Of a stretch of DNA of 64,000 nucleotides, positions 21,658-42,683 are shown piece by piece. The notes under the pieces are model-generated. The model saw nothing but the letters and a program-made list of their open reading frames with translations. It did no database searches and was not told where the DNA came from. Made by a program: the position numbers and the translations under genes. The DNA is from Ktedonobacterales bacterium (lineage in GTDB: Bacteria > Chloroflexota > Ktedonobacteria > Ktedonobacterales > DATBGS01). The first letter of the stretch is position 1. Each line of letters opens with the position of its first letter. The stretch spans positions 1-64,000 of the forward strand of contig DATBHW010000064.1 in the NCBI GenBank assembly GCA_036557285.1, in the 5' to 3' direction.

Positions 21658-22566
21658 CTATGCGCTGCTGGCCTCTGCGAAAACTTTCTGGCGTCCATGC
21701 CGTTGTTCCAGGGAGATAAAGTGGCGCAGCCCGCGCCCATAGTCATCTTCGCGCCGGGTAGCTCGCGCTGCCTCGCGCGTATGGCCCAGGGTGACGAGGA
21801 GGCGGTGAGACAACCACTCGGCAAAGCCTTCACGCTGGAGCATACTTTGTTTCTGGGGCGCGTGATCTGCCTGCCAGGCATGGGCATATTCATGAGCCAA
21901 CGTGCCAATCAACGTTGCACGAGGCAAACCCCGTTCGATATAGATCGTGCGCGCCTGGCCTTGCTGCTCAAAGAAGCCCAGGATATGCTGCCGGGTGGCC
22001 CCGATGGTTGGCGTCAGACGCTCATGGCGTCGGCGAGCGATTGCCAGTTCCCTGGGTTCAACTATGCGCAGGACGGGGATGTGCTTGACATCTCTATCGA
22101 ATATTGCCCTGGACTGCTGGATGACCATCTGATAAAGCGCCTGGACGGTTTGATCGTCCAGCACCATCGTTTGGGCGCACTCACCGCAGCGATATTGCCC
22201 GCCAGGAAGCTGGCGCCCGTCAGGGCCAAGTGGCGCTCCACAAATATGACAGGCAGGGCGCTCCTGGGAACAGGAGACGCAGTAGGGTTTGGGCGAGTCG
22301 CCAAAGCGATAAAATTGGCCGATAATCGGTTTATGACACGCGGCGCAGCGGGGTAGTGTGCCAAGGCAGTGCTTGCAGAGCCGATGTTGATCGATTGGCG
22401 CTAATTCGCGTGCCGGTTGCTGGCAGGATGTGCAGCGAGGGGCGCTGTGTTCGCACTGAGGACACACTACCAGGCCAGTACTATACTCGGTGTATCCCAG
22501 CATCAGCGAACTGCCGCAGAGGTGGCAGAATTTGTGTTTAGAGAATGAGAGCGGTATTGGTATCAT
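21658..22566 (-). CDS. Zinc-ribbon array plus DA1-like metallopeptidase
   Basis: 302 residues. The N-terminal 130 residues hold eight CxxC pairs (14/17, 35/38, 45/48, 64/67, 74/77, 96/99, 106/109, 127/130), enough for four zinc-ribbon or LIM-like units. The C-terminal half carries HEYAH (225-229) and a downstream Glu in REGFAEW (about 246), the gluzincin arrangement of plant DA1, whose LIM-plus-peptidase layout this mirrors. DA1 in plants is a ubiquitin-dependent peptidase; bacterial homologues are uncharacterised as far as I know. Its ATG overlaps the upstream cyclase-AAA-TPR stop by 4 bases (ATGA), so the two are translationally coupled. The substrate is unknown. Confidence 0.75.
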   Translation of the reverse strand: MIPIPLSFSKHKFCHLCGSSLMLGYTEYSTGLVVCPQCEHSAPRCTSCQQPARELAPIDQHRLCKHCLGTLPRCAACHKPIIGQFYRFGDSPKPYCVSCSQERPACHICGAPLGPDGRQLPGGQYRCGECAQTMVLDDQTVQALYQMVIQQSRAIFDRDVKHIPVLRIVEPRELAIARRRHERLTPTIGATRQHILGFFEQQGQARTIYIERGLPRATLIGTLAHEYAHAWQADHAPQKQSMLQREGFAEWLSHRLLVTLGHTREAARATRREDDYGRGLRHFISLEQRHGRQKVFAEASSA

Positions 22567-25500
22567 GGGTATGGATTTGTTTCGTGGACAGCCCTGGTCC
22601 CGGCTCTATCCAATATATTGCGCACGCGCAGCGCGGCGGGCGCTGCATGTAATTCCTCATACGTTGTCAGGGCTGCATGAAAGAGATCGGACGCTTCCTG
22701 GCGTTGGTCAATGGCCTGGCTCTGGCTCAGATGGGTAGCCAGGGCTTCCAGGGTCAGCCCTTCCTCCCAACGTGTGCCAATCTGGCGGTAACAATGAAGG
22801 GCGATATGGAAGTCTTCGGTTGCCTCGCTGAACATTCCTCGCTTCGAGTTTATCATGCCACGTGTACGGATCAAGCCTGCCCATCCTTTACGGTTGCCAG
22901 AGCGTTCCATCAATGCCAGCGCAGTGGGCGCCAGTTCACTATAGCGCGCCTCATCGCCGAGGAGAGCAGCCAATTCTACCAGCCGCCATTGAATCTGCGG
23001 GCGCTCAATGGCTGAATAATGTGTTGAAAGCCGCTGGAAGATGACACGAGCCTCTTCGAGCCGCTGCTGGGCGATCCGAAGCTGCCCGCTGATGAATTCG
23101 TGGCTCAGTTCGGTTTCAGGAGCAGCCTGCTCAGCCATATTTGCATAATAGTCCCCTCGCTCATCCTGGCCGACGCCGTAATAGACAATTGCCAGCGCCA
23201 TAATGCCGTAGGGAGCGGGCCAACTCTGGCTCAACAAATCATATTGCTCACAAAGGGTTGCCAGTCGCTCGCCCCAATAGAGCACTTCGGCCCATTGATC
23301 CCACTGATAATAAATAAGAACTTTGTTGCCCAACATGCCACAGAGTTTGCGGCGGCTGTTCATGGATTCGGCAACCTTCAATGCGGCGTCTGCCCAGTAC
23401 AGTGCTTGAGGATAATCAGAAAGCTGCAAATACGCTCTGCTGGCGGTGAAGTAAATATCATAGACTTCTGCGCGGTCTTTGATACGATCAACTAGCGCCA
23501 GTCGCCGCTTCTGCACCTCCAGAAACGCGCGGTAATCGCTCATATTGCCGTAGACATTGGAAAGCGCGTCGAGGACTTCAGAGAGATAGACAGGATGATT
23601 CAGCCGTTCGGCGATGCTTGCAGCGCGTTCCGCGCTGGCTATGGCGCGCTCCATCGCGCTTTCGTCAAGCTGCTGGCTGAAATAGGCTTGCATATACCAG
23701 AAGGCTTCGCTGGCGAGCAGCAGCGCCATTTCCATGATCTCAGGCTGGTCTTTGAGTAGGGCCAGTCCCTCATCGAGATACGTGCGAATCAAACCCAAAT
23801 CAGGTGGTTGCTTGAACCAACTGCGCCAGCGGGTGCCGAGCATCGTGAGGTGCTGGTAGAGATGCGCACGCTCCAGCGCGGAGGCGTCTTGTAATGCGTC
23901 GAGGGCGTGCTGATACTGTTCCCAGCATGAATCTCCATCTGAAAGGACAAAGTATGCTCTGGCAAGCCGCTCATAGAGGTGTGGCCGCAGCGAGGGATCG
24001 CTTGCAATGCCGTTCAAGAGATCGAGGGCTGCGATGTAGTGGCGTGCCGCTTGATTGGCTGCGTATTTGCCCAGCGCCTCATTGCCAGCCTGGATGAGAT
24101 AGCCGATGGCTTTCTGGCGCAGGTCGGCCTGGGCTTGTGCGCGAGCAGGGCGACGCGCCAGCGCCTGCCCGGAGGTTGTCTGGGACCAGGCGACAATAGC
24201 TTGATGGTAATGATAGGCTAATAGCTCGATGAACCCCTCAATACGACCGGCAGCTATGCGTTCCAGCCATTCGGCCATGCGGGCATGCTCGCGCGCGCGC
24301 CGGGTACGCGGGACGCTCGCATAGGCAACATCGCGGACCAGCACATGATTGAAGCTGTATTGCACATCTCTCTCGATGAGTATTCCAGTAGGGCGCTCGT
24401 TCTCCCCGATGAAATCTTTGCGAACCAGGCTCTCCAGAGCCAGATCGAGCGCCTCCGGGCTGATCTCCTGGGACAGATTAGCCAGCGCGCCTTTCCAAAA
24501 CGTTCGACCAGCGAGGGCAGCGTGTTGCAGCACGCGCTTTTCAGTTGGCGGGAGCAGATCAATGCGCGCGGCCAGGACACCCTGAATAGAATCGGGGATG
24601 CTAAATGAAAGCAGGTCGCTGAAGGTCTTGCCGGGGTCTTGATTCACAGTTTGCCAGCGATCACTTTTACGTATCAGGATGCCAAGGTCAATCAGCATGC
24701 GGACAATTTCCTCAACAAAGAAGGGATTGCCCTCCGCTTTTGCCAGGATGCTATTGCGCAGCGCCGGAGGCAAGCCATCGGGCGCCAGCAGGGCGTCAAT
24801 CAATTCATGGCTTTGTTCTGATGAGAGTGGCTCCAGGGTAATGGTCGTAAAGTTACGTTTGCCGCCCCCCCAGCCAGGCCGTTTTTCTAGTAAGTCCAGA
24901 CGAGCAGGACAGAGGAACAAGAGCGGAGCATTGCTCACCCGCTGCGTAAGGTACTCCAGCAGGTCGAGCAGGGCTTCATTAGCCCAGTGAATATCGTCAA
25001 TTAAGATAAGGAGCGGCTGGCGGCGCGCCAGTGATTCAAAGAAGATACGCCAGGCGCGGAAGAGATTTTCACGCTGCTCATTGGAATCAGCCGATGGCCG
25101 AACCATTTCTCCCTGTTCTGCCCCCAGGCCGATGGTGAATCCAAGCTGGCGAACGAGTGAGGGAATAACCTCGCTTTGGTGGCTGCCATCAAGCACTTCC
25201 TGCACCTTCTGAAGCAGGCGCTCCCTGGCTCGCTGCGATGTATCATCGTCAACGAATCCGGCATAGGAGCGCAGAATCTCCGCAAGGGGCCAGTACGTAA
25301 TGCCTGCCCCGTAGGGTGGACAGCGCCCTTCCAGAAAGAGCGGTATCTGTGGGAAGGGGCCGTCATCCGTCTGCGTGGCGCTTTCGCCTGTATGCTGTTG
25401 GCGGAGTCGCTGTATCCATTCGCGCACCAGACGCGATTTGCCCACCCCAGGCACGCCCAGCAGGGTGATCAGGTGAGGCCGCCGCTCGCCGATCACTCGC

Positions 25501-26525
25501 TCATAGACCGCATCCAGCAGCGCCAGTTCCGGCGCGCGGCCAATGAACGGTGATGGCAATCCTTCGATGCCGCGCAGATGTTGAGTCGGAGGGGCTGCCT
25601 GATCTTCAACCGCCTCGATAGCTTGCCAGACGCGCAGCGGTTTTGGCTTTCCCTTCACCTGTATCGGGCTGAGCGGTTGATAGACAATCGCTCCGTGTGT
25701 GCTGCGGTAGGTGCGCCCGCCGACCAGGATGGTTCCTGGTTGGGCCTGCTGCTGGAAGCGCGCGGCAACGTTCACGGCGTCGCCCGTAATTAAAAACTGC
25801 CCGCCATCGCCCGCTCCGCTGGCAGCGACGACCTCGCCCGTGCTAATGCCGATGCGAATCTGCACAGGCGCCGCCTGGGGGTCTTCAGCCAGCCGCTGCT
25901 CGTTAAAGCGCCTGAGCGCGTTGAGCATCTCCAGGCCGGCCCGAACTGCCCGCTCTGGATCATCTTCGTGGGCAACTGGCATCCCAAAAATTGCCATCAC
26001 GGCATCGCCGATAAACTTTTCGATGGTACCACCATGACGGTGGATGGCCTGAGCCATCGCCGCAAAGTATCCAGCCATCAGCAGACGCACTTCCTCTGGG
26101 TCCATGCGATCAGCCAGCGCGGTAGAACCAGTCATGTCGGCAAAGAGGATGGTGACAACCCGCCGCTCTTCGCTATCAAGCGAGGCTAATAGGTTTTCTG
26201 CTTCGCCAACTTCTCTTGAAAGGACAGAAGGCGCTGGTGTATCCGAGGGCGGGTTGAGATTAGGGGCGGCGGGCGCGGTTTCAGCTTGCCCACGTGCCGA
26301 GACACGCTGTTCAGGGGGTGTCCCTTGAAGCCCCGTCTGCGTTGTCGGCGGCGGCGCATCTTCTGCGGGAGATGCCAGGAGCATGCCGCATTCGTTGCAA
26401 AACTTTGCATTTGGGGAATTGATTGCTCCACATGATGGGCATATGATTGATAGCAGGCGAGCGCCACATTCATTACAGAATTTGGCGCCTGCTGGGTTTT
26501 GAGTGCCACACACCGGACAACGCAT
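22563..26525 (-). CDS. Zinc-ribbon / class III adenylyl cyclase / AAA / TPR signalling protein
   Basis: 1320 residues. Two zinc ribbons come first (C3/C6/C17/C20 and C29/C32/C43/C46). A class III nucleotide cyclase domain follows at about 120-300, with metal Asp130 (LFADMTGST) and Asp174 (KFIGDAVMAIFG), the purine-contact Lys170 and the GDAVNVAARF loop, so it looks catalytically intact. An AAA/STAND-type ATPase with P-loop GVPGVGKSRL and an IDDIHWANEALL Walker B spans roughly 320-600. The C-terminal 600 residues are helical, TPR-like. Such proteins link ligand sensing or protein binding to cAMP output. It is coupled by overlap to the DA1-like peptidase, which has similar zinc ribbons. Confidence 0.92.
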   Translation of the reverse strand: MRCPVCGTQNPAGAKFCNECGARLLSIICPSCGAINSPNAKFCNECGMLLASPAEDAPPPTTQTGLQGTPPEQRVSARGQAETAPAAPNLNPPSDTPAPSVLSREVGEAENLLASLDSEERRVVTILFADMTGSTALADRMDPEEVRLLMAGYFAAMAQAIHRHGGTIEKFIGDAVMAIFGMPVAHEDDPERAVRAGLEMLNALRRFNEQRLAEDPQAAPVQIRIGISTGEVVAASGAGDGGQFLITGDAVNVAARFQQQAQPGTILVGGRTYRSTHGAIVYQPLSPIQVKGKPKPLRVWQAIEAVEDQAAPPTQHLRGIEGLPSPFIGRAPELALLDAVYERVIGERRPHLITLLGVPGVGKSRLVREWIQRLRQQHTGESATQTDDGPFPQIPLFLEGRCPPYGAGITYWPLAEILRSYAGFVDDDTSQRARERLLQKVQEVLDGSHQSEVIPSLVRQLGFTIGLGAEQGEMVRPSADSNEQRENLFRAWRIFFESLARRQPLLILIDDIHWANEALLDLLEYLTQRVSNAPLLFLCPARLDLLEKRPGWGGGKRNFTTITLEPLSSEQSHELIDALLAPDGLPPALRNSILAKAEGNPFFVEEIVRMLIDLGILIRKSDRWQTVNQDPGKTFSDLLSFSIPDSIQGVLAARIDLLPPTEKRVLQHAALAGRTFWKGALANLSQEISPEALDLALESLVRKDFIGENERPTGILIERDVQYSFNHVLVRDVAYASVPRTRRAREHARMAEWLERIAAGRIEGFIELLAYHYHQAIVAWSQTTSGQALARRPARAQAQADLRQKAIGYLIQAGNEALGKYAANQAARHYIAALDLLNGIASDPSLRPHLYERLARAYFVLSDGDSCWEQYQHALDALQDASALERAHLYQHLTMLGTRWRSWFKQPPDLGLIRTYLDEGLALLKDQPEIMEMALLLASEAFWYMQAYFSQQLDESAMERAIASAERAASIAERLNHPVYLSEVLDALSNVYGNMSDYRAFLEVQKRRLALVDRIKDRAEVYDIYFTASRAYLQLSDYPQALYWADAALKVAESMNSRRKLCGMLGNKVLIYYQWDQWAEVLYWGERLATLCEQYDLLSQSWPAPYGIMALAIVYYGVGQDERGDYYANMAEQAAPETELSHEFISGQLRIAQQRLEEARVIFQRLSTHYSAIERPQIQWRLVELAALLGDEARYSELAPTALALMERSGNRKGWAGLIRTRGMINSKRGMFSEATEDFHIALHCYRQIGTRWEEGLTLEALATHLSQSQAIDQRQEASDLFHAALTTYEELHAAPAALRVRNILDRAGTRAVHETNPYP

Positions 26526-40705: not shown

Positions 40706-40738
40706 CTTGCAGCGCCGCCTCCCAGGTGGCGCTGCAAG
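40706..40738 (+). other. 15-bp leader hairpin before the FHA-NDH2-cNMP gene
   Basis: Arms 40706-40720 and 40724-40738 pair over 15 bases with one G-U pair around a 3-base loop. It ends 12 bases before the GAGGAGG ribosome-binding site. It may protect the message or gate translation. A TACAAT at 40677-40682 could be the -10, with no clear -35. Confidence 0.65.
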
Positions 40739-40763
40739 CGGCATCCACGAGAGGAGGACGACG

Positions 40764-42683
40764 GTGACAGGTGATCTAGCTCTGGTGCTTGATGGCTATC
40801 CGCAGTATCGCCAACATTTGCCAGATGGCAAGTGGACGCTGGTGCGCGTCCGACAGGGTGAAGCGGCCAGTAAGCCTGGTGAGATTGGAGTGGCTGACCC
40901 TCGCGTTTCTCGCCAGCATGCTGCGATTGTTGTCTGGCGGGGCCGGGCAACCATTCTTGATCTGCATTCGACGGATGGAACGTTTGTGAATGGTCGCAGG
41001 ATTGATGGTAGAACTCCGCTCATCCCTGGCGACTTGATTTCTGTTGGTGATACCACCTTTCGGTTGGTAGGGACGGCCCAGAAAGAAGTTTTGATTCTGG
41101 GTGGTGGATTTGCAGGCGCCTATACGGCGATGGAATTGCAGAAGCTGGTCAAACGCCGCCGCGATATTCATATCAGCCTGATCAGCCAGGACAATTTTTT
41201 TCTCTTCCATCCGATGCTCCCTGAACTCGTTTCTGGCAGTATCGAAACACAGCACGTGCTGGTGCCGACTCGGCGCATGAGTCCTGGCGTGACGTTTTAT
41301 ACGGGGTCGGTTGAGCAGATCGATCTGGATAATCGGCAGGTGACGGTTGATCTCGGTTTCGAGAACCGACGCGAGATTGTGCGTTTTCATTATCTGGTGC
41401 TGGCGCTGGGGGCGATCACCGATCTTTCGCGTATGCCCGGCATGAGCGAACACGCTCTGCTGGCAAAGACGGTGGGCGACGCTTTTTACCTGCGTAATCA
41501 TCTGGTGGATATGCTGGAAAAAGCCGACGCAGAGAGCGACCCGGAGGAGCGGCGCAAGCTGCTGACCTTTATTGTAGCCGGTGGGGGATTTTCAGGCGTC
41601 GAGGTTATGGCGGAATTATCTGATCTCATTCACGATGCCTTGCCAAACTATCATAATATTGAGCCACAGGAGCCGCGCAAGCTGCTGATCCAGGGGCCTG
41701 AGCGTATTCTGCCGGAAGTGAAAGAGAGCCTGGCAGTTTTCGCTACCAAGAAATTAGCAAAGAAGGGCATTGAGGTGCGCGTCAATACGCGGCTGAAAGC
41801 CTTGACGCCTGATGAGGCTATTCTTGCCACCGATGAGCGCATTCCCACCCGGACTTTGATAGCTACTATCGGGAACGTGCCTCACCCGTTATTGGCGGCT
41901 CTGCCCTGTCAGCGCGATCAACGAGGAGCCGTTATTACAAATGAGTTTCTTGAGGTTCCCGATTGCCCTGGTGTGTTTGCGCTAGGGGATAATGCTTCGG
42001 TGCCCGATGTTACGACTGGAGGACGCTGCCCTCCAACGGCGCAGTATGCTATTCGTCAGGCGCGCTTTTTGGCCTGGAATGTTCTGGCGACGATTACCGA
42101 GAAACCGAAGCGGGCTTTTAAGTTTGGTGGATTGGGGCAGCTTGCCTCATTGGGGCGTGGATCGGCGGTTGCCCAGGTTTTTGGTATCAAGCTTTCTGGC
42201 TTTATTGCCTGGTCTCTGTGGCGGTTTGTCTATCTCTCTAAACTGCCTACGATGGAGCGGCGTTTGCGCGTGGCGGCGGATTGGACGCTTGATTTTCTGC
42301 TCCCACGCGATATTGTGCGGCTTCAGGTAGAACACTCCAGTATGGTGCAGCGCCTGCACTTCGAGCCAGGGCAGGTGGTGATCCGCGAAGGCGATATTGG
42401 TACACGCTTTTATATCGTGCTTAAGGGCCAGCTAGAAGCGGTGCGTAAACGCGCTGGGGGGGAAGAGCGTCTTGCGCTCATCAAAGAGGGCGATCATTTT
42501 GGCGAGCGGGCATTACTGCGACGCGCGCGGCGCGCGGCTACGGTGCGTACTCTGACGCCAGTGGATTTGCTGGCGCTGGAACGGGCTGACTTCATGGCGC
42601 TTGCTACCAGTGGGCTGCTTCAGCCGGAGGAATTGGAGCGGGCTGCAATAGGCGAACAACCCGGACACGTACCTCAATCCTGA
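40764..42683 (+). CDS. FHA domain-NDH-2 NADH dehydrogenase-cyclic nucleotide-binding fusion
   Basis: 639 residues from GTG 40764, preceded by GAGGAGG. An FHA domain fills about residues 38-103 (GVADPRVSRQHAAI and STDGTFVNG, the phosphothreonine-binding loops). A type II NADH:quinone oxidoreductase follows at about 106-520, with FAD motif ILGGGFAGA (111-119) and NADH motif IVAGGGFSGVEV. The end, about 530-625, is a cyclic-nucleotide-binding domain (FEPGQVVIREGD, HFGERALLRRARRAAT). NDH-2 passes electrons from NADH to quinone without proton pumping. The flanking domains suggest control by Ser/Thr phosphorylation and cAMP-type ligands; that control is inference. It overlaps the next, convergent gene by 10 bases. 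Confidence 0.88.
   Translation: MTGDLALVLDGYPQYRQHLPDGKWTLVRVRQGEAASKPGEIGVADPRVSRQHAAIVVWRGRATILDLHSTDGTFVNGRRIDGRTPLIPGDLISVGDTTFRLVGTAQKEVLILGGGFAGAYTAMELQKLVKRRRDIHISLISQDNFFLFHPMLPELVSGSIETQHVLVPTRRMSPGVTFYTGSVEQIDLDNRQVTVDLGFENRREIVRFHYLVLALGAITDLSRMPGMSEHALLAKTVGDAFYLRNHLVDMLEKADAESDPEERRKLLTFIVAGGGFSGVEVMAELSDLIHDALPNYHNIEPQEPRKLLIQGPERILPEVKESLAVFATKKLAKKGIEVRVNTRLKALTPDEAILATDERIPTRTLIATIGNVPHPLLAALPCQRDQRGAVITNEFLEVPDCPGVFALGDNASVPDVTTGGRCPPTAQYAIRQARFLAWNVLATITEKPKRAFKFGGLGQLASLGRGSAVAQVFGIKLSGFIAWSLWRFVYLSKLPTMERRLRVAADWTLDFLLPRDIVRLQVEHSSMVQRLHFEPGQVVIREGDIGTRFYIVLKGQLEAVRKRAGGEERLALIKEGDHFGERALLRRARRAATVRTLTPVDLLALERADFMALATSGLLQPEELERAAIGEQPGHVPQS

Follow-up and report, generated by a model that had tools for sequence, protein, structure and literature searches.

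Bacterial type II NADH dehydrogenases (NDH-2) are usually regarded as unregulated, single-subunit enzymes. The external NDH-2s of plants and fungi (NDB/NDE1 type) bear EF-hands and are regulated by Ca2+. Cyclic nucleotides, on the other hand, are read by the cyclic-nucleotide-binding domains (cNBDs) of PKA, PKG, and CRP, in which a Glu of the phosphate-binding cassette contacts the ribose and an Arg contacts the phosphate; an Ala following this Arg favours cAMP over cGMP.

The 64,000-nt stretch of DNA analyzed here (the window) encodes a 639-aa protein in which an FHA-like domain, an NDH-2, and a cNBD occupy one frame. As in NDB/NDE1, a second-messenger domain is fused to NDH-2, but it is a cNBD for a cyclic nucleotide and not an EF-hand for Ca2+. 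With the cNBDs of PKA RI-alpha and PKG the protein shares the FGE...R cassette (FGERALL is also found in Plasmodium PKG), whereas the effector in those proteins is a kinase and here a flavoenzyme with a single cNBD.

An NDH-2 core flanked by two added domains

The initial annotation of the locus as a single reading frame with these three parts was correct, including its coordinates (Table 1). In the Pfam search it had proposed, neither flank failed, and every domain scored above its cut-off: FHA at residues 41–95 (E 5e-13; 49.6 bits, cut-off 20.7), Pyr_redox_2 at 108–433 (E 6e-39), NDH2_C at 457–516 (E 8e-11; 42.5 bits, cut-off 27.7), and cNMP_binding at 531–614 (E 7e-23; 80.8 bits, cut-off 27.5). 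This make-up is far beyond chance. Sequence matches in the PDB were mycobacterial NDH-2, Ndi1, and C. thermarum NDH-2 for the core, and FHA domains and PKA/PKG cNBDs for the flanks. Structure prediction was less informative: the AlphaFold model of the whole protein with five sequences had a mean pLDDT of 56, so that contacts between domains cannot be read from it, and the FHA part modelled alone (mean pLDDT 43) was too low to interpret. A Foldseek search with the pLDDT-56 model retrieved flavoprotein reductases, NDH-2s among them, at large rmsd.

Table 1. Features of the FHA-like–NDH-2–cNBD locus and of the cyclase gene in the window.
Feature	Position	Strand	Basis or remark
Long hairpin, presumed 5' leader, CTTGCAGCGCCGCC-TCCCA-GGTGGCGCTGCAAG	40706..40738	+	z -3.1
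Shine-Dalgarno AGGAGG, six bases 5' of the GTG start	40752..40757	+	
CDS of the FHA-like–NDH-2–cNBD protein, 639 aa	40764..42683	+	ORF and Pfam
Degenerate FHA domain (Pfam match residues 41–95)	40833..41069	+	S49, H52 kept; D71
NDH-2 catalytic core (Pyr_redox_2)	41085..42062	+	GGGFAG, GGGFSG, AQYAIRQ
Gln310, aligned with NADH-selecting E198 of C. thermarum NDH-2	41691..41693	+	
NDH2_C, C-terminal membrane-association region	42132..42311	+	Pfam
Cyclic-nucleotide-binding domain	42354..42605	+	Pfam and PDB matches
Phosphate-binding cassette FGERALLRRARRAATVRT (E581, R590)	42498..42551	+	
Class III cyclase-AAA-TPR protein	22563..26525	-	The genome encodes four PF00211 proteins

The core is a complete NDH-2, as had been claimed. 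Both Rossmann motifs are present, GGGFAG for FAD and GGGFSG for NAD(P)H, together with NDH2_C and the AQxAxx(E/Q) quinone-site motif in the form AQYAIRQ. These features are shared with the NDH-2s of C. thermarum (4NWZ/5KMR), yeast (Ndi1), and mycobacteria (9MQY), the top PDB sequence matches, from which the window protein differs in its FHA-like domain, its cNBD, and the residue at the NADH-selecting position. Glu or Asp occupies this site in most NDH-2s, which therefore react with NADH only, and in the Agrobacterium enzyme a Glu-to-Gln change moves specificity towards NADPH (PMC5220320). Alignment to C. thermarum NDH-2 places Gln310 at this site, so the donor of the window protein may be NADPH, or either nucleotide. 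Strict NADH specificity is thus doubtful. An acidic residue at this position is typical of NDH-2s without defining them, and Gln and His are frequent there among the aligned relatives. The same genome also encodes complex I, as judged from NuoH-type matches, and another NDH-2, which has no added domains.

Cyclic-nucleotide-binding domain and recurrence of the fusion

The cassette of the cNBD, FGERALLRRARRAATV, is of the FGE...R form with both E581 and R590 intact, and the best PDB matches of the domain are the cNMP-binding domains of PKA and PKG. The combination of NDH-2 with a cNBD is not peculiar to the window protein. It was found in at least 31 other genomes from several bacterial phyla, and this recurrence, wider than the initial annotation saw, is the interesting part of the locus; the statement that NDH-2 normally stands alone is too strong for the phyla concerned. 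Among 400 sampled Chloroflexota genomes, 13 carried the fusion, 12 of them being further genomes without FHA; this count is a lower bound, since only three candidates were scored per genome. In the Rokubacteria phylum the fusion occurred in about 19 of 95 genomes, and it is also borne on plasmids of Rhodobacter sp. CZR27 and Gemmatirosa. Within the class of the source genome, which was represented by 47 genomes, only this one had it at the threshold used. The Gemmatirosa plasmid protein (L059:4995-7016) is a further fusion variant, in which two CBS domains follow NDH-2-cNBD.

On two maximum-likelihood trees, the distribution of the cNBD required only two changes, compared with about 13–15 changes for shuffled labels; one gain and one loss therefore suffice. 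In the fuller of these trees the window protein formed its own deep branch. We found no open-access paper that mentions an NDH-2-cNBD or NDH-2-FHA fusion by name, which does not prove that such proteins are undescribed.

Because the fusion recurs across phyla, a cyclic-nucleotide input to these enzymes is likely, and regulation by such a nucleotide is the most probable role of the NDH-2-cNBD pair. In the reading that we consider somewhat probable, the protein of the window is a type II NAD(P)H:quinone oxidoreductase associated with the membrane; its activity, or its membrane or partner state, is set by the C-terminal cNBD upon cyclic-nucleotide binding, and its FHA-like part does not read phosphothreonine. 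Such an enzyme would deliver electrons from NAD(P)H via FAD to quinone and would pump no protons; the ligand, most likely cAMP, would bind the cNBD and thereby set the state of the enzyme through a putative allosteric effect of either sign, so that the cell could adjust the entry of electrons into the chain in response to a second messenger.

A different possibility is that the cNBD does not respond to cyclic nucleotides at all and serves in dimerisation, in membrane contact, or in the binding of another ligand, as in CRP/FNR relatives with other signals. The cassette Arg has indeed been lost in two Chloroflexota members (L061 and L064), and two near-complete f44 genomes, of which L064 is one, carry the fusion but have no class III cyclase. 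However, the canonical Glu and Arg are kept in the window protein, in nearly all relatives read, and in every member read from the Rokubacteria phylum; of the 12 Chloroflexota genomes tested for class III cyclases, 10 have them, the source genome itself encoding four; and the best PDB sequence matches are domains that bind cyclic nucleotides. We therefore regard an unresponsive cNBD as rather unlikely, though it is the rival with the most in its favour.

Should the cNBD be responsive, the cross-phylum fusion would let a second messenger control NAD(P)H oxidation directly and post-translationally. A broader proposal, which we put forward tentatively and at slightly less than an even chance, is that NDH-2-cNBD proteins form a family of cyclic-nucleotide-gated respiratory dehydrogenases spanning at least four phyla, in which electron entry is switched at the enzyme itself, and that the member in the window additionally docks via a repurposed FHA domain.

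The FHA-like domain and the start of the gene

The initial annotation described a phosphothreonine-binding FHA domain and suggested that Ser/Thr kinases, together with a cyclic nucleotide, control the enzyme. The profile match is real and, as in the FHA domains of FhaA/TB39.8 and Rv1747, the SRxH motif is present (S49-R-Q-H52); the genome, moreover, holds 65 Pkinase matches. Nevertheless, the domain is degenerate. In contrast to FhaA/TB39.8 and Rv1747, the Gly-Arg that contacts the phosphate is missing, with a three-residue gap falling on the IGR in the alignment to FhaA, and STNG has become STDG, with D71 in place of Asn. The match starts only at position 11 of the 67 profile positions, positions 1–10 being unmatched, whereas all 33 other FHA matches of the genome begin at positions 1–3, and every one of the 29 other FHA domains of this genome that were read has kept the Gly-Arg. 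NDH-2-cNBD recurs, but none of the relatives read has an FHA domain, and the three-part fusion was seen only in this genome. Since the Gly-Arg is lost, STNG is altered, and the FHA domain is found only here, phosphothreonine reading is unlikely, and dual control through kinases and a cyclic nucleotide appears improbable. It is more likely that the FHA part is a docking or structural module, probably a late, lineage-specific addition to the enzyme.

The restriction of the FHA fusion to one genome, in a compared set that includes no relative of the same family, could also mean that the segment is an assembly artefact, or that it is left untranslated because an internal start is used. Codon-usage scoring separated the frames too poorly to bear on this segment. 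The frame is, however, uninterrupted over all 639 codons from GTG 40764, the contig extends well past both ends of the gene, and the strong Shine-Dalgarno AGGAGG directly before this codon makes it a well-supported start. We hold an artefact or an internal start to be very improbable.

Directly 5' of the Shine-Dalgarno lies a near-perfect hairpin of 14 pairs without a T run. It has no second copy in the 64,000-nt window, an Rfam search gave no match, and a promoter scan upstream of the gene revealed no convincing site.

Gene neighborhoods and cyclases

The presence of a cyclase gene 14 kb away had been offered as a hint of linkage. The gene exists, but we rejected it as evidence: given its distance and its opposite strand, and as one of four in the genome, there is no reason to connect it with the NDH-2-cNBD gene. 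Neither a cyclase nor a cytochrome gene adjoins the latter in the window.

In relatives, two contexts were observed in different groups, one hinting at cyclic nucleotides and the other at electron transport. In the Chloroflexota family f18, the NDH-2-cNBD gene shares a cluster with a response-regulator/cyclase gene in divergent orientation; the cluster of L070 also includes a gene for a cNBD protein. This context may not transfer to the window protein, because in the f18 enzymes (L035, L036, L040, L046, and L048) the AQxAxxQ quinone motif is gone (GAMVMVAFGEG), although the cNBD is retained. In other Chloroflexota NDH-2s (L009-L011, L018, L037-L045, L047, L050, and L054-L057), the core is preceded by a hydrophobic N-terminal stretch longer than 100 residues.

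The second context was seen in 6 of 18 distinct loci of the Rokubacteria phylum (L019, L102, L104, L107, L109, and L114), where an adjoining frame, read as a multihaem cytochrome gene, contains 4, 9, or 10 CxxCH motifs. A related cNBD gene lies directly upstream of NDH-2-cNBD in L019, L109, and L114, and on the other side in L102. The product of the one in L019 (4717-6333) is a short cNBD protein whose N-terminal part is hydrophobic; this gene follows multihaem cytochrome genes and lies 12 bases upstream of the NDH-2-cNBD gene.
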